From a virus, in the IMG/VR virus record IMGVR_UViG_3300018080_000610, positions 1-23,104 of that record: a stretch of 23,104 nt of DNA; one strand, given 5' to 3'. Within the stretch, counting starts at the first letter, position 1; each line of letters begins with the position of its first letter. The translations under genes were made by a program, and so were the position numbers. The notes beneath the pieces were generated by a model. It did not search any database, had not been told where the DNA came from, and saw nothing but the letters and a program-made list of their open reading frames with translations. Positions 13-13,637 of the stretch are shown piece by piece.

Positions 13-2016
13 ATGACGCCTAAACGTTTTTCTTTTCCTGTTCAACTCACTAAGTCTTATAAAGATAGTGACGGACAGATGCATGTTATAGGTATTGCTT
101 CTAATACACGTCTAGATTTTTATTCTGAGAGGTTTAGTCACAAGGCTCTCAATAAAATGGTTAGATTTTGCAAGGGCACCGAATCTGCTTTTATTAGCGA
201 AATAGGTGTTACGTGTGGACCAGTAGTTCTGTTGCCTACTCATCATAGCACATTTGATATCGGCGTAGCAGTTGATGCATGGACTAGAGCTGCCGATAGT
301 GGCAAACAATATGAATTATATATAGATTTTGTGTTGCACGAAGATTATGCCGAGGCTAGATCTTTGTATAGAGAAGTGTCGAGTGGTAATCCTGAGAAAC
401 AATTATCAGTAGGCGGATGGATCAATCCTTATAATAAAAACGCATATTATTGGGAAGATGATTCGGGCTCGGATAGATCTATCAGAGTTATTGACGATCT
501 GTTGCTTGATCATGTGGCTGTAACCAGACCTTCATTCGCTGCTAATGAGGGCACTAGCTTTGTTGGTGCCGTGGTTAGATCTATGATAGAAGAAAATCAA
601 GATGCCGATGTTTGGCTTGATGCCGTGCATGTGCAAAAAGGCGATATAACAGACGAAGACCTTGATGTCACTAATAAAGAAATAGATAAAATCATAGAAG
701 ATACCTTATCTATTGCTAAGGCAGTAGTTACTTACAGAAACTATCCTCTTGCTGATATCGGTACATCATGGAGTTTTTCGGCTTCTGACGGTAATGCCGT
801 TATCAATAAAGGTGGCTGGGCGCTATATAAAGCGGTTCATACTTGGTTCGAATCTGGTGCTGATTCAGAAAAGAAATCTACCTATAAGCTTCCTCATCAC
901 AAAATAATCGACGGAGAAGTTCGCACTGTTTGGCGTGGAGTTGCGGCAGCGATGGTTGCACTTATGGGCGGACGACGCAAGCTTCAAGTTCCCGAAAATG
1001 ACAGAAAAGGAATTTACAACCATTTATCTCGTCATTATCGCCAATTTGATAAAGAACCGCCAGAATTTAAAGATACGTATTCTGAAAGTGATCTTGTTGA
1101 ATACCATAAAAACAAATGCGACGACGATATGTTGTGGCTCACTGATGACATAATTGATGAAATGCATGGAATTATCAAGGAGGATAAAAGTATGTCTGAA
1201 CCTGTCGATAACGAAGAAATGAACACCAATGAAGATGTTGGTGCAAATGTAGAAACAGAAAGTAATCAAGATAATAAAGTAGAAACAAAAAGTGTAGAAG
1301 TTAACAATGAACAGGGCACTGAAGAGACACAAGAAGATCATGGCAATGAACAATCTGAAACATCAATAAAGTCGGCAATTTCTAGTACTCTAAAGAAATG
1401 GTTTAGTAAAAAGGAGAATGAACTTCAAGAAAAGCTGGACAAGATTTCGGTTAGTGCAGCTGAATTGAAGAAATGTCTTGGAGACGACGAAATGTCTGAC
1501 GCGGTATCGGCTATTCTCAAGGAACATGGACTAACGTTAAACAAGAATGAAGAGACCGAAGCACGTGATAGCTGTCAAGAAAATAAAAATAATCAGGTGA
1601 CGGTAAATGAGCCGAATGCAGATGACTCTAAACCAGAGCCAGTTATTAACAGTGTATCACCAGAAGAACTTGAGCATCTAAAAGCTATTGTAGTTGCTCT
1701 CGAAAGTAAGATTAATCTTATGGAAAGTAATTCACAGAAAAATATTGAAAATTCACTAAAAGAACTTATTCCTGCGCTCGTTGAAGAAGTAGGCAAGTGC
1801 ATTCAGGAAGAAGTTAGAAAGGTTGATGATAAAATTAACGAAACCGTTGAAAATCTTAATAAAACCGCCGAAGATGTTTCGGCATTAAAATCACTGTCTG
1901 GTATCAGTCAGGTTTCACCTAACAATGGAACGCTGGTGCCTTCAGATAAAAGTGTATTTGCAGGTTTAATTAGTGGTCCTGTTCTGAACGGGACAATAAC
2001 CCGAAAAGATAGTTAA
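13..2016 (+). CDS. Prohead maturation protease fused to scaffold protein
   Basis: This 667-aa protein probably matures the procapsid and also supplies its scaffold. Residues 1-190 resemble the HK97-type (U35) prohead protease: His77/His78 lies in a 'THHSTFDIG' stretch, the likely Ser132 nucleophile in 'LSVGGW', and Asp166 in 'LLDHVAVTRPSF' fits the acidic third residue. Residues 240-355 form a separate domain ('YPLAD', 'YKLPHH', 'WRGVAAAM', 'YNHLSRHY', 'DKEPPEF') that I recall from other phage prohead protease proteins. Residues 395-460 are acidic and low in complexity, and 460-640 are Lys/Glu-rich and predicted helical, as in scaffolds. The ATG at 13 follows AAGGA at 1-5. An in-frame internal start at 1192 has an even better ribosome site, so two products are likely. 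The gene lies directly upstream of the capsid gene, as expected. The catalytic assignment is from motif reading only. Confidence 0.88.
   Translation: MTPKRFSFPVQLTKSYKDSDGQMHVIGIASNTRLDFYSERFSHKALNKMVRFCKGTESAFISEIGVTCGPVVLLPTHHSTFDIGVAVDAWTRAADSGKQYELYIDFVLHEDYAEARSLYREVSSGNPEKQLSVGGWINPYNKNAYYWEDDSGSDRSIRVIDDLLLDHVAVTRPSFAANEGTSFVGAVVRSMIEENQDADVWLDAVHVQKGDITDEDLDVTNKEIDKIIEDTLSIAKAVVTYRNYPLADIGTSWSFSASDGNAVINKGGWALYKAVHTWFESGADSEKKSTYKLPHHKIIDGEVRTVWRGVAAAMVALMGGRRKLQVPENDRKGIYNHLSRHYRQFDKEPPEFKDTYSESDLVEYHKNKCDDDMLWLTDDIIDEMHGIIKEDKSMSEPVDNEEMNTNEDVGANVETESNQDNKVETKSVEVNNEQGTEETQEDHGNEQSETSIKSAISSTLKKWFSKKENELQEKLDKISVSAAELKKCLGDDEMSDAVSAILKEHGLTLNKNEETEARDSCQENKNNQVTVNEPNADDSKPEPVINSVSPEELEHLKAIVVALESKINLMESNSQKNIENSLKELIPALVEEVGKCIQEEVRKVDDKINETVENLNKTAEDVSALKSLSGISQVSPNNGTLVPSDKSVFAGLISGPVLNGTITRKDS
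1177..1183 (+). promoter_or_regulatory. Internal ribosome binding site for nested scaffold
   Basis: AAGGAGG sits 8 nt before an in-frame ATG at 1192, inside the protease-scaffold gene. It falls exactly at the junction between the domains and the low-complexity acidic linker, where a separate scaffold would be expected to begin. Confidence 0.72.
1192..2016 (+). CDS. Nested in-frame scaffold protein (internal start)
   Basis: The ATG at 1192 is in frame with the protease gene (codon 394) and preceded by AAGGAGG at 1177-1183 with an 8-nt spacer, one of the strongest ribosome sites in the window. The 274-aa product starts 'MSEPVDNEEMN' and contains the acidic linker and helical, Glu/Lys-rich scaffold region but no protease. 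In lambda, scaffold Nu3 is made in the same way from an internal start in protease gene C, so this layout is established for phages. The scaffold would be made in excess over the protease-scaffold fusion and co-assemble with it through the shared C-terminus. The start site is seen in the sequence; production of a separate protein is inferred. Confidence 0.72.
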   Translation: MSEPVDNEEMNTNEDVGANVETESNQDNKVETKSVEVNNEQGTEETQEDHGNEQSETSIKSAISSTLKKWFSKKENELQEKLDKISVSAAELKKCLGDDEMSDAVSAILKEHGLTLNKNEETEARDSCQENKNNQVTVNEPNADDSKPEPVINSVSPEELEHLKAIVVALESKINLMESNSQKNIENSLKELIPALVEEVGKCIQEEVRKVDDKINETVENLNKTAEDVSALKSLSGISQVSPNNGTLVPSDKSVFAGLISGPVLNGTITRKDS

Positions 2017-2052
2017 TTAGACTTTAATTTATTATTTAAGGAGAAAATCGTA

Positions 2053-3435
2053 ATGTCAGGTAGACCTAAAGCTCCAGAAGAGATTCTGAGGACACTAACT
2101 GTTGGTGATTTGGCTAATGGCGGACAGTTGAATGCCAAGCAGCAAGCTAGATTCCTTCAGCTTGTAGATCAATATTCTGTAATGCTGTCTAAAGTTCGTC
2201 AACATCGTATGGAAAATCCGCGAGAAGATATCGATCGTATGCAGCTCGGAGAGCCTATTACTACTCAGGCTACTGAAAATGTATGGCCTGGTACTACCAA
2301 CAGACCGGTATTTGATCGTGTGCAATTGAATACATCCAAGTTACAATCAGCATGGAATATCACCACTGAAACATTCTGGTCCAATATTGAACAAGATAAT
2401 ATTGACGAATCTGTAATGCAGATGATGAGTAAACGTGCTGTTACAGATTTGGAATGGCTTGCCATTCAGGGTGACTCTACTCTTGGAACAGGCACACCTC
2501 TTAATAGGTTGCTAAGAACTTTTGATGGTTGGGATATCCAAACTAACTCGTCAAATATTGTTGAATGTAATGGTGCATCGATCCGCAAGGAAGTCTGGGC
2601 TGAACTGTATCGTTCGATGCCGGAAAGTTATTTGCAAGATCCAGACCTTAATTGGTTTGCGTCACGAACCATTATGGTTGACTGGCTTGATACATTAGCA
2701 GATAGAATGACGGCAAGCGGCGAAGATGCTTTGCGTGGGCTAGGTATTGCTCCATTTGGTATTCCTGTGATGTCTGGCCCTCCGGGTGAAATGGCCTCCG
2801 CCGGTGGACCTCGACTTGGCGTACCTCTTATTCCTTCTAACCAGCCGTTGACTGTTACTGAAGCTACGCCTGGTGCAACGGTAGGAACACGATTCGGTCC
2901 ATTCGAAATTACCACTGGTACTAACGATGCTATTACGCTTAACATAGATGCCGCTGGTAACATTGCCTTCGTATTGACCGCTGGTGTGTATATGACCACC
3001 GATTTGGTGGCAGCTATTAATACGGCTCTATTGGCTGGTGGTAGTGCCGCTTGCGCGAAGACCGACGGATTTAATAGGCTCGTCATTGAGTCTACGACAA
3101 CTGGTGCCGCCTCTAGTGTAGCAGTCGTTGCGGTAGCCAATAGTGCCTACGCTACTATCGGGTTGACGGCCGGTGTTTACACTGGTGCCGCAGCTGGTGG
3201 CGGTGGACAAGTAAATGAAGGCAGCTTTATTTGGCTCGCTAATCCTCAGAATTTTATTTGGGGTATTCTGGCAGCAAATGATCCTAACGGTAAAAATGGA
3301 ACCCGGATTTTCGTTCAGTTTAATCAGAAGTTCGATAGAATTGAAGTCGATATGTATAACGCTGTTTGCGCTTCCATTGAAAACACCGCTGCTATCGTTA
3401 AGGGTGTGCATGTAAGGCGTAAATCGCTTCTGTAA
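2053..3435 (+). CDS. Major capsid protein (HK97 fold) with inserted beta domain
   Basis: This 460-aa protein is the shell subunit. Position directly after protease-scaffold, length and sequence pattern fit an HK97-fold capsid protein. The N-terminal 60 residues ('LNAKQQARFLQLV', 'HRMENPREDIDRM') resemble an N-arm; residues 85-150 ('TSKLQSAWNITTETFWSNIE', 'LEWLAIQGDS') look like the spine-helix and P-domain part; and the C-terminal 388-460 ('GSFIWLANPQNFIWGIL' onward) closes the fold. Residues about 265-387 are Ala/Gly/Thr-rich, with a pattern ('LTAGVYMTTDLVAAINTAL', 'NRLVIES', 'ATIGL') like flagellin hook IN-type beta modules. This looks like an insertion that would protrude from the capsomer. 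The ATG follows AAGGAG at 2038-2043 with a 9-nt spacer. Proteolytic removal of an N-terminal delta region is possible but not visible. Confidence 0.9.
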   Translation: MSGRPKAPEEILRTLTVGDLANGGQLNAKQQARFLQLVDQYSVMLSKVRQHRMENPREDIDRMQLGEPITTQATENVWPGTTNRPVFDRVQLNTSKLQSAWNITTETFWSNIEQDNIDESVMQMMSKRAVTDLEWLAIQGDSTLGTGTPLNRLLRTFDGWDIQTNSSNIVECNGASIRKEVWAELYRSMPESYLQDPDLNWFASRTIMVDWLDTLADRMTASGEDALRGLGIAPFGIPVMSGPPGEMASAGGPRLGVPLIPSNQPLTVTEATPGATVGTRFGPFEITTGTNDAITLNIDAAGNIAFVLTAGVYMTTDLVAAINTALLAGGSAACAKTDGFNRLVIESTTTGAASSVAVVAVANSAYATIGLTAGVYTGAAAGGGGQVNEGSFIWLANPQNFIWGILAANDPNGKNGTRIFVQFNQKFDRIEVDMYNAVCASIENTAAIVKGVHVRRKSLL

Positions 3436-6273: not shown

Positions 6274-6987
6274 ATGGCTACCGAAACAGCACAATTTGTA
6301 ATTGATAAACGCGGAATTTCATCGCTAACAATAGCTGGTCCATCAGGTAAAAAATATACATTTTCTGGCGACAAGAAAATCACGGTTAGTGATGAGGTAG
6401 ATATTAAATGGTTTAGATCTCATAAATCAGGATATAAAGTTGTCAAAGAAGTGGTTGACGGTAAAGTAGAATTGGATCAAGGTGCAGTGCCTATGTCTTA
6501 TAGGCAGATTAGTGTACCAGATAACCGTAGTACCATCACTAGTCGCTTACTTAATCTCAAGAAAACTAACAACTTACCTAAGATTCCAACTAATATAACG
6601 GTAAATGGTGAACCTGTGCCGCAAGATAAGGTCGGCCCTCAAATAGTTTCAAGCGAAGTGAAAGGATTGCCTATTAAAAATACTAGCGGTACATTAACAT
6701 CCGAATTACTTAATGAACAACAAGAGGCCGTAGCACTTCGTAAGGAAATGCTAAAGAATAAGTCTGTCGATACACAGCGAGAAGTTGATAACGAGACAGA
6801 AGAAAATGCAGATGAACAGGACGAATCTATTACTCAAGATGTAAAGTTCGATTCCAAAGCAGGTGGATATCGTTGTCCTAAGTGCGGAAAGCTCTGCAAT
6901 AGTAATAATGGATTAAATATACATATGCAGAGAATGCATAAGGATGATGAGGCGATAATAAACGAAGATAAAGATAGTGATAATTAA
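6274..6987 (+). CDS. Unknown protein with C-terminal C2H2 zinc finger
   Basis: This 237-aa protein has an N-terminal beta-type domain (residues 5-60, 'GPSGKKYTF', 'ITVSDEVDIKWFRSH', 'GYKVV') that resembles the start of the 98-aa protein at 9794. The middle is polar and probably disordered (residues 135-195, acidic at 166-190). At the C-terminus residues 201-222 form a full C2H2 zinc-finger pattern: Cys201-X2-Cys204-X12-His217-X4-His222, with hydrophobic Leu214 in the finger core position. The ATG follows AAGGGAGA at 6262-6269. The stop overlaps the next ATG (TAATG), so it is coupled to the adaptor gene. A neck or head protein that binds DNA or another protein through the finger is possible; the function is unknown. 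Confidence 0.68.
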   Translation: MATETAQFVIDKRGISSLTIAGPSGKKYTFSGDKKITVSDEVDIKWFRSHKSGYKVVKEVVDGKVELDQGAVPMSYRQISVPDNRSTITSRLLNLKKTNNLPKIPTNITVNGEPVPQDKVGPQIVSSEVKGLPIKNTSGTLTSELLNEQQEAVALRKEMLKNKSVDTQREVDNETEENADEQDESITQDVKFDSKAGGYRCPKCGKLCNSNNGLNIHMQRMHKDDEAIINEDKDSDN

Positions 6988-11346: not shown

Positions 11347-11619
11347 ATGGTTAATTTAAAGGCAATTAGTAAATCTCAGTTCATGGTAAAAGGGGAAAAA
11401 ATTACCATGAAAAAGGGTGAATTACGTGAATTTGATGATGATGTACTGCAAGAAGATTCAGTAAAAATTTGTCTGAAATTCGGTAAGCTAAGTGAACGCT
11501 CAATAAAGAAAAAGAAAAAATCAACGGTTAAGGAAATCTTAAAAGTTGATAATAATAAAGACGAAGAAAAAATCCCAGAAAAGAAGCAAAAATCTTCTTT
11601 TGATAAGGAGAAAAAATAA
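11347..11619 (+). CDS. Small basic protein before tail sheath
   Basis: This 90-aa protein has a short beta-type N-terminus ('SQFMVKGEKITMKKGELREF') and, from residue 53, a Lys-rich low-complexity tail ('SIKKKKKSTVKE' onward), likely disordered. In size and layout it resembles the 98-aa protein at 9794, but shared sequence is weak. It begins 3 nt after the preceding gene without a clear ribosome site of its own, and its end contains the AAGGAG used by the sheath gene. The stop overlaps the sheath ATG. The function is unknown. Confidence 0.58.
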   Translation: MVNLKAISKSQFMVKGEKITMKKGELREFDDDVLQEDSVKICLKFGKLSERSIKKKKKSTVKEILKVDNNKDEEKIPEKKQKSSFDKEKK

Positions 11620-13637
11620 TGGTTGAAACTCTACATCCTGGTTTATATTTTGTCGAGGAAAATAATCCGCCGACTGTTCCAGGTTTATCTACTTCTTACG
11701 GTGGTTTTGCTGGTTTTGCTGGTTGGGGCAATGAAGAAAAAGCTAGTGCAGTAACAAGTTGGGAGCAATTCAAATATTATTACGGGGGATTCTGTTATAA
11801 CCCAAGCGATAATCCTGCTGCACTTCCTATCGATGTTTATAATTATTTCAATAATGGCGGACGTATAGCCTATATCGGGCGTTGCCTTGAGGCTACTGCT
11901 GCACAATCATCTATTCAAACCGATGATTGTGCTCATGGTACACCAGATCAACCACTTACCATTAAAGGTAAATACAAAGGAACTCTTGGCGACAGGCTAT
12001 CTGCTTCTTCGTTGAAGTTTGAGACTACATTAGCTGCACAATTGGCAACTGGTGCTACTACAGCAACGTTAACCACGGTATCAGGACTTGAAGAAGGCGA
12101 TGTAGTGGTTATCGATCCTGCTGCTGGCGCAAATAGTGTAACAGTAGTAGTCGCTGCTATAGATTATTCAACTAATATTATAACATTTAAGGCAACGGTA
12201 TTTGCTGGTGGTAATAAAGCTATTGGCACTAGCGTATATTGTGGGTCACGTCATAAAGCATCGTCCACTACTGTAACAGCTATAGCGGCAGGAGATAGTA
12301 CTGTTACTGTAACCGATGCTACTGATTTTATTGTAGGACAGATTATTACAGTAACCACATTAACTACTGGTATTGATATTGTTGGGCTTACCGTTACCGG
12401 TAAGTCTGGAAATCAATTATCTTTTACGCCAGTTTGTCCTGCACTAGTTGGTGCCGATATTCCTGTTGGCTCACCTATAAATTCTCAGGAGTTTAATTTT
12501 AAGGTATATCTTGACGATGAATTTGTAGAAGAATACCAATACTTATCTATGTCTACTACAAATGCTACTGATTATATTGAAACACGGTTAAGCGGAACTA
12601 ATAACCCGTCCAATTACATAACACTGCAAGATGATACATCGACATCAGCTGTATATGAACGTATGCCTGGACCTTGGCAGACTTGGTATCTGGCAAGTGG
12701 TTCTGATGGAGCCGCGTTAACGAGTAGTGAATTATTGGGTGCCGCTGGTGTCCCTCCTAGCGGAATGCACCTATTTGATGCCGTGCCCGAATTAAACTTT
12801 TTCTGTCTAAGCAGCAATGAGCTTACGGCAGCTGATAATATCACTGCCATGCAAGGCGGTATAGCATATGCGGAAGACAGGGCAGATCTATCATTTATTG
12901 TTACTACACCAGATCCTACACTTGCCGTGGGAAATGCCGCTGAAACACCTGCTAATGTCAAGAATTTCAGGTTATATGATCTTGCTAGAAATTCAAGTTA
13001 TGCCACTTTATATTGGCCATGGCTTGAAATGGATAATCCTATCGTGGCAACAGCCGTAATTAATCAGCCACCCAACGGATTTGTTATGGGTACATGGGCC
13101 AAGAAAGCCTATGAAGAAGGCCCGCATGTAACACCTGCCAATGTAGAGCTAAGGGGCATTAAGGGACTCACCTATAATTGTACTAACACAGAACAAGATC
13201 TCCTTAATCCACTCGGTATTAATGTGCTTAGATTTTTCCGTGGACGTGGTTATCGTGTATGGGGTGGAAGAACACTTAATAAGTTAATGGATGGTAATCA
13301 ATGGATCGTGGCAAGAAATATGAAAAACCTTACCAAACGATCCATTGAAGAGGTTGGCACTGAATGGGTTTTTGCTCCTAATGACGAGGAGCTATGGGAT
13401 TTAATCACTACTACGCTTACAGAGCTATTTACTCGTTGGTGGGAAGACGGTTGGTTACGTCCACGAGATAATATAGCAAAAGCATTTTATGTTAAATGTG
13501 ATTCTGAGACAAACCCTCCAAGTGTTACTAATCTTGGTCAATGCGTAATTAAATGCGCTATCAATCCGCCGCCGCCAGCCGAGAAATTGGTATTTTATCT
13601 TGGGCTGCTCGGAAGCGGTGCAGTAGTTGAGTTGTAA
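11619..13637 (+). CDS. Contractile tail sheath protein
   Basis: This 672-aa protein polymerises around the tube and contracts at infection. The N-terminus 'HPGLYFVEENNPPTVPGLST' and 'GFAGFAGWG' fits the sheath start. The C-terminal domain carries strong sheath signatures: 'GINVLRFFRGRGYRVWGGRT' at about residues 528-547, then 'FAPNDEELWDLI' and a final beta segment 'EKLVFYLGL'. Residues about 137-290 are an inserted region made of two tandem Thr-rich beta modules related to one in the adaptor protein; these should lie on the outside of the tail. The ATG follows AAGGAG at 11605-11610 and overlaps the preceding stop (TAATG). Confidence 0.93.
   Translation: MVETLHPGLYFVEENNPPTVPGLSTSYGGFAGFAGWGNEEKASAVTSWEQFKYYYGGFCYNPSDNPAALPIDVYNYFNNGGRIAYIGRCLEATAAQSSIQTDDCAHGTPDQPLTIKGKYKGTLGDRLSASSLKFETTLAAQLATGATTATLTTVSGLEEGDVVVIDPAAGANSVTVVVAAIDYSTNIITFKATVFAGGNKAIGTSVYCGSRHKASSTTVTAIAAGDSTVTVTDATDFIVGQIITVTTLTTGIDIVGLTVTGKSGNQLSFTPVCPALVGADIPVGSPINSQEFNFKVYLDDEFVEEYQYLSMSTTNATDYIETRLSGTNNPSNYITLQDDTSTSAVYERMPGPWQTWYLASGSDGAALTSSELLGAAGVPPSGMHLFDAVPELNFFCLSSNELTAADNITAMQGGIAYAEDRADLSFIVTTPDPTLAVGNAAETPANVKNFRLYDLARNSSYATLYWPWLEMDNPIVATAVINQPPNGFVMGTWAKKAYEEGPHVTPANVELRGIKGLTYNCTNTEQDLLNPLGINVLRFFRGRGYRVWGGRTLNKLMDGNQWIVARNMKNLTKRSIEEVGTEWVFAPNDEELWDLITTTLTELFTRWWEDGWLRPRDNIAKAFYVKCDSETNPPSVTNLGQCVIKCAINPPPPAEKLVFYLGLLGSGAVVEL
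12027..12245 (+). repeat. Sheath beta module copy 1
   Basis: Residues 137-209 of the sheath contain 'ATGATTATLTTVSGLEEGDV', 'DYSTNIITF' and 'AIGTSV', matching the adaptor module most closely. Confidence 0.6.
12255..12482 (+). repeat. Sheath beta module copy 2
   Basis: Residues 213-288 of the sheath repeat the pattern in a more diverged form: 'STTVTAIAAGDSTVTVTDAT', 'FIVGQIITV', 'GNQLSFTPV' and 'IPVGSPI'. Confidence 0.5.

Follow-up and report, generated by a model that had tools for sequence, protein, structure and literature searches.

A nested ribosome site and in-frame start predicted to yield a separate scaffold from the prohead protease gene of a contractile-tailed phage, with equivalent starts in XkdF/XkdG-type head modules

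The DNA analyzed here, a 23-kb virus record of 23,104 nucleotides that is referred to as the window, derives from a contractile-tailed phage. The ORF listing gives a 667-aa open reading frame (ORF) on the plus strand at positions 13–2016, comprising in order a prohead protease domain, a middle domain and a putative scaffold. This ORF lies directly before the major capsid gene, and there is no other scaffold candidate between the protease and capsid genes. The capsid gene (2053–3435, plus strand) encodes a protein of the XkdG type, as indicated by its match to phrog_1623 (E = 1.2e-50) and by tblastn matches to phage major capsid proteins, and the protein is 22–33% identical to its counterparts in Streptomyces, Rhodococcus, Vibrio and Halobacterium phages. 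An insertion of ~130 aa at roughly residues 270–395, possibly a surface domain, sets it apart from its phage relatives. A tail sheath of the contractile-phage type is encoded on the plus strand at 11619–13637 (Pfam Phage_sheath_1, E = 1.5e-13). In the head-tail region, a 237-aa protein (6274–6987) shows a weak C2H2 zinc-finger match that falls below the Pfam cut-off.

Profile and fold comparisons support the prediction that the upstream part of ORF 13–2016 is a head maturation protease. The domain spans residues ~4–190 (22–582, plus strand), as delimited by an S78 alignment, hhalign and Foldseek. The N-terminus of the window protein was aligned with 19 viral proteins, and Peptidase_S78 is matched by 16 of the 20 aligned members; with hhalign, the S78-type alignment that includes the window sequence is tied to actinophage proteases with a probability of 97.8%. 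Ser132 of an LSVGG motif (codon at 406–408) occupies the invariant Ser column, and His77/His78 adjoin the conserved His column; as judged from the sequence, these residues may serve as the catalytic Ser and His. An AlphaFold model of residues 1–393 is of medium quality (mean pLDDT 67), and its best solved match in Foldseek is the T4 gp21 capsid protease (5jbl, E = 7.7e-4). No ClpP-like structure is present among the 50 Foldseek matches listed for this medium-quality model, and membership in the lambda C family was not found. Pfam and NCBIfam models do not match the N-terminus of the fused gene product; at the Peptidase_S78_2 (PF14550) cut-off the protease has no match, the likeness being one of remote profile similarity, and an HMM built for related proteases does not recognize it.

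Between the end of the protease (~residue 190) and the nested start described below lie a short helical stretch and a middle domain of ~120 aa (residues ~236–356; 718–1080, plus strand). The middle domain, with the sequence YPLAD...YKLPHHK...VWRGVAAAMVALMGGR...YRQFDKEPPEFK, has no Pfam match and recurs in at least 80 viral loci, where it is found in many viral S78 protease genes, fused to many prohead proteases, and as a stand-alone protein in Moorella phage MTATph1. This Moorella phage was the sole phage match to the window protein and was rejected as a protease relative, the match being to the middle domain and not to the protease. Most middle-domain proteins that lack an XkdG-type capsid neighbor also lack a strong nested start after the middle domain, and therefore the middle domain alone is no predictor of such a start. 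The first-pass annotation had placed the nested start exactly where the protease gives way to linker and scaffold; the boundary itself stands, but the protease ends at ~residue 190 and the middle domain intervenes.

The sequence AAGGAGG at 1177–1183 (plus strand) forms an internal Shine-Dalgarno (SD) site with a duplex energy to the 16S rRNA tail of −11.2 kcal/mol, compared with −4.7 kcal/mol at ATG 13, upstream of which just 12 nt are present in the window. A gap of 8 nt (1184–1191) separates it from the ATG at 1192–1194, which is Met394, is in frame with ORF 13–2016, and opens a nested gene of 274 aa (1192–2016, plus strand) with equivalent nested starts in relatives. As the first-pass annotation had described, and exactly in each of these particulars, the protease frame of the window gene holds, at the boundary with the scaffold, an internal start that has a ribosome site of its own. 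Among the 230 internal in-frame ATG, GTG and TTG codons of the 25 window genes, ATG 1192 is the sole start with an SD energy of −9 kcal/mol or lower. The AAGGAGG is partly paired in a weak hairpin predicted for untranslated RNA, and translating ribosomes are expected to open it.

The weak SD at ATG 13, together with a protease domain so divergent that Pfam and NCBIfam models miss it, could be read as a sign that the upstream part has degenerated and that only the nested product is functional in the window. This is highly improbable, since the frame is fully open throughout, LSVGG with Ser132 is kept, adjacent His residues are present, and the fold matches that of a prohead protease. A second alternative is that only the 667-aa fusion is made, that AAGGAGG and its ATG arose by chance in a Lys-Glu-rich linker whose AAR and GAR codons favor SD-like runs, and that the scaffold is freed, if at all, by proteolysis; self-cleaving protease-scaffold proteins are a precedent of this kind. 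When synonymous codons were shuffled 5000 times with the protein kept, an equal site arose at Met394 in 3.1% of shuffles and anywhere inside the gene in 10%. Taken alone, the nested site of the window is suggestive, its p = 0.03 being modest and not proof, and for this reason the case rests on family-wide conservation, which exceeds what chance would give.

When viral contigs were searched with the window protease and with the capsid protein, each as a single-protein query, no close relative of the window gene emerged; the conservation that follows is thus at the family level and covers relatives, and the exact ATG 1192 is known from the window sequence alone. Scanning viral contigs with a profile of the capsid protein yielded 80 loci. 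The family was represented by 41 fused protease/scaffold genes, each next to an XkdG-type capsid gene. In 40 of these 41, the window gene included, the best internal SD-start reaches −10.3 kcal/mol or lower and normally sits at the equivalent boundary. Streptomyces and Rhodococcus phages annotated with a single "capsid maturation protease" gene have the best in-frame SD-start of that entire gene where the protease meets the acidic linker; the nested SD energies are about −13 to −18 kcal/mol, depending on the SD window used. Moreover, in none of the 33 alignable representatives does an early start have an SD as strong as the nested one. Comparable internal sites are found in 1 of 59 other ORFs at the phage loci and in 1 of 57 at the bacterial loci that served as controls.

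The single exception among the 41 genes, that of the archaeal virus phiH, is fused but has no strong nested SD, and is an observation in the family that speaks for the fusion as the only product; of the haloviruses, both phiH (L015 1608–3407) and HHTV-2 (L183 2578–4206) are protease-scaffold fusions that lack a strong nested SD. In-frame MSE or MSK starts occur at the acidic boundaries of these two genes, and another mode of initiation is possible there. The pattern of substitution across the family argues against a chance site. The start column of the alignable phage representatives holds ATG or GTG only (two misaligned sequences have an ATG of their own), with at least six changes between ATG and GTG on a tree of the protease part, and GTG makes up 5.2% of Val codons in the phage gene set. 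Synonymous-codon identity along the aligned gene peaks at the SD codons, 5–9 codons before the start, where it reaches 0.99 compared with a gene mean of 0.62. The SD also lies at the same place in families that read it in different codon phases: in the window it is AAG GAG G, in codons for KED, and in many other lineages GAA GGA GGT, in codons for EGG. Therefore, the encoded peptide alone does not explain the SD.

The same arrangement is seen in bacterial genomes. The proteases of Lactococcus phage 28201, Dulem virus 37 and the methanogen virus psiM100 were used as queries and led to 40 bacterial loci, and 29 XkdF genes were examined (27 from the bacterial loci and two from the query phages). 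In 28 of the 29, the best SD-start of the second half of the gene falls in one alignment column, as ATG in 13, GTG in 12 and TTG in 3; the remaining gene has no aligned scaffold at the start column. The start of XkdF from a PBSX-like element of B. spizizenii lies in this same column and would give a nested product of 91 aa, and psiM100 has a GTG with an SD of −16.4 kcal/mol at its protease/scaffold boundary. The check for loss of start and SD in relatives that the first-pass annotation had proposed, here run at the family level, accordingly found the nested start kept (40/41 fused phage genes and 28/29 XkdF genes). Start columns limited to ATG, GTG and TTG, and an SD that is conserved synonymously, make it unlikely that the 667-aa fusion is the only product. 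In bacterial XkdF genes, the long product mostly has an SD that equals or exceeds the nested SD in strength, so the expected ratio of products varies between lineages.

If a short product is made, is it an assembly scaffold? Pfam and phrog searches returned no match to the C-terminal part of the window protein, its sequence being too divergent, and the scaffold role is predicted from its position, its composition and a short motif. This motif, FAGLI (1957–1971, plus strand), fits the pattern [WFY].G.[FLIMVY] and is a candidate capsid-binding peptide. Within the last 30 aa, the products of 32 of the 33 fused phage genes carry the pattern, as do PBSX XkdF and the split scaffold of Pseudomonas phage UF_RH6, against a background of 14%; a FAGLI-type motif is absent from the C-terminus in many other family members, and the motif counts as supporting evidence only.

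The position of the scaffold can also be seen in relatives with a split arrangement. In Vibrio, Stenotrophomonas, Rhizobium, Agrobacterium and Pseudomonas phages, the stop of the protease ORF is followed by a second ORF in the scaffold position; these separate scaffold ORFs contain no internal start of comparable strength. In ICP1, the product of such a split gene, gp124 (separate from the protease gp125), assembled coat protein into uniform particles and is an experimentally shown scaffold (PMC10945586). A third arrangement is found at loci L123, L129 and L132, where the protease is separate and is followed by an ORF of middle domain plus scaffold with an AAGGAGG and in-frame ATG after the middle domain. 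Like the window, these three loci combine the middle domain with this capsid type, and they represent its nearest architecture.

It could be argued that the nested product is made but acts otherwise, for example as an internal core or protease-regulating protein, given that the window C-terminus has no database match and that acidic helical proteins can serve other roles. We regard this as very unlikely, since neither the window nor its fused relatives offer another scaffold candidate between the protease and capsid genes, and a scaffold holds this very place in split relatives, as proven for ICP1 gp124. The proposal that the C-terminal part is a nested scaffold with a ribosome site of its own is thus supported by nested starts conserved in very distant relatives, which include phages from several bacterial phyla, and by the scaffold position in split ones.

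We hypothesize, with considerable confidence, that ORF 13–2016 gives rise to two products in one frame, a 667-aa protease-scaffold fusion and a separate 274-aa scaffold. Initiation at 13 would produce the fusion, and initiation at 1192, directed by AAGGAGG, would produce the short protein, which in the window phage would probably be in excess because the nested SD is much stronger than the SD at 13. The scaffold tail would be common to both products; the scaffold would organize the capsid protein (2053–3435) into a procapsid, and the common tail would bring the protease inside. After assembly, the protease would be expected to degrade the scaffold and itself, which would allow DNA entry.

This working design resembles that of lambda C/Nu3, in which the C-terminal part of the protease gene, read in the same frame from a start of its own, encodes the scaffold. 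The lambda C protease belongs to a ClpP/S49-like family, whereas the window pairs an S78/XkdF/T4 gp21-type protease with an XkdG-type capsid protein and an inserted middle domain. The lambda scaffold and protease have been cited as fused (PMC5513430). The design has already been proposed for Mu-like P. aeruginosa phages: in PaMx73, Val177 of gene 27 is preceded by an SD, with Mu I/Z as the precedent (PMC4378225). Mu has an internal in-frame scaffold start with an SD in its protease gene and is likewise contractile; the middle domain and the XkdG-type capsid neighbor set the window apart, the likeness being one of design. The first-pass annotation had recognized the lambda C/Nu3 design in a contractile phage; the design does match, but the window is not its first instance, as contractile Mu already has it (PMC4378225). 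Closer to the window are PBSX, Yaboi (Streptomyces), Weasels2 and Trina (Rhodococcus) and psiM100 (Methanothermobacter), all with a fusion beside an XkdG-type capsid gene and a nested SD-start at the boundary; compared with these XkdF/XkdG modules, the window protease is too divergent for Peptidase_S78_2, and the middle domain and the capsid insertion are extra features of the window. ICP1 gp125/gp124 has in common with the window the order protease, scaffold, capsid protein, but its protease and scaffold are separate ORFs and a decoration gene precedes the coat gene. A further likeness is to herpesvirus UL26/UL26.5, of which the short product arises from its own transcript and not from an internal ribosome site. 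This pair encodes a protease and a scaffold in one frame with a common C-terminus (PMC2949831), as proposed for the two products of the window gene.

The nested design (lambda, Mu) and its combination with a contractile tail are therefore already known. What appears to be new, as far as the records and open papers searched extend, is the generality of the nested start across fused XkdF/XkdG-type head modules, among them PBSX; the open papers searched contained no mention of such a start for either XkdF or PBSX. It is likely that such a start is near-universal, and unannotated, in these modules across PBSX, gut prophages, large Streptomyces and Rhodococcus phages, aquatic phages and a methanogen virus, that the start and its SD are selected independently of the peptide, and that lineages have moved between the nested and split forms. 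The annotations of the relatives examined give one start per ORF and miss the nested start, just as the first-pass annotation had anticipated. Scaffolds are often missing from phage annotation as a result of fast divergence, and here also because the protease gene conceals them; many head modules that are annotated with a protease only, PBSX included, would gain their scaffold from a conserved nested start. Comparison of nested and split forms could, in addition, reveal the route by which the protease enters the procapsid, whether through a tail in common with the scaffold or, once split, in some other way.

Several minor features of the split and rearranged loci were also observed. A strand motif, SLVDxxAN, which closes the protease domain of fused actinophage genes, is placed differently at other loci (L007 2227–3408, L008 2207–3382, L016 2232–3467 and L180 2911–3960): in split phages it lies at the N-terminus of the second ORF, and in Dulem virus 37 and Lactococcus phage 28201 it precedes the protease domain. 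These placements amount to an apparent permutation of the protease. Finally, the scaffold-position ORF of Pseudomonas phage UF_RH6 (L012, about 2017–3420) is open and unannotated in its record, and the neighboring major capsid gene is labeled there as an HNH homing endonuclease.
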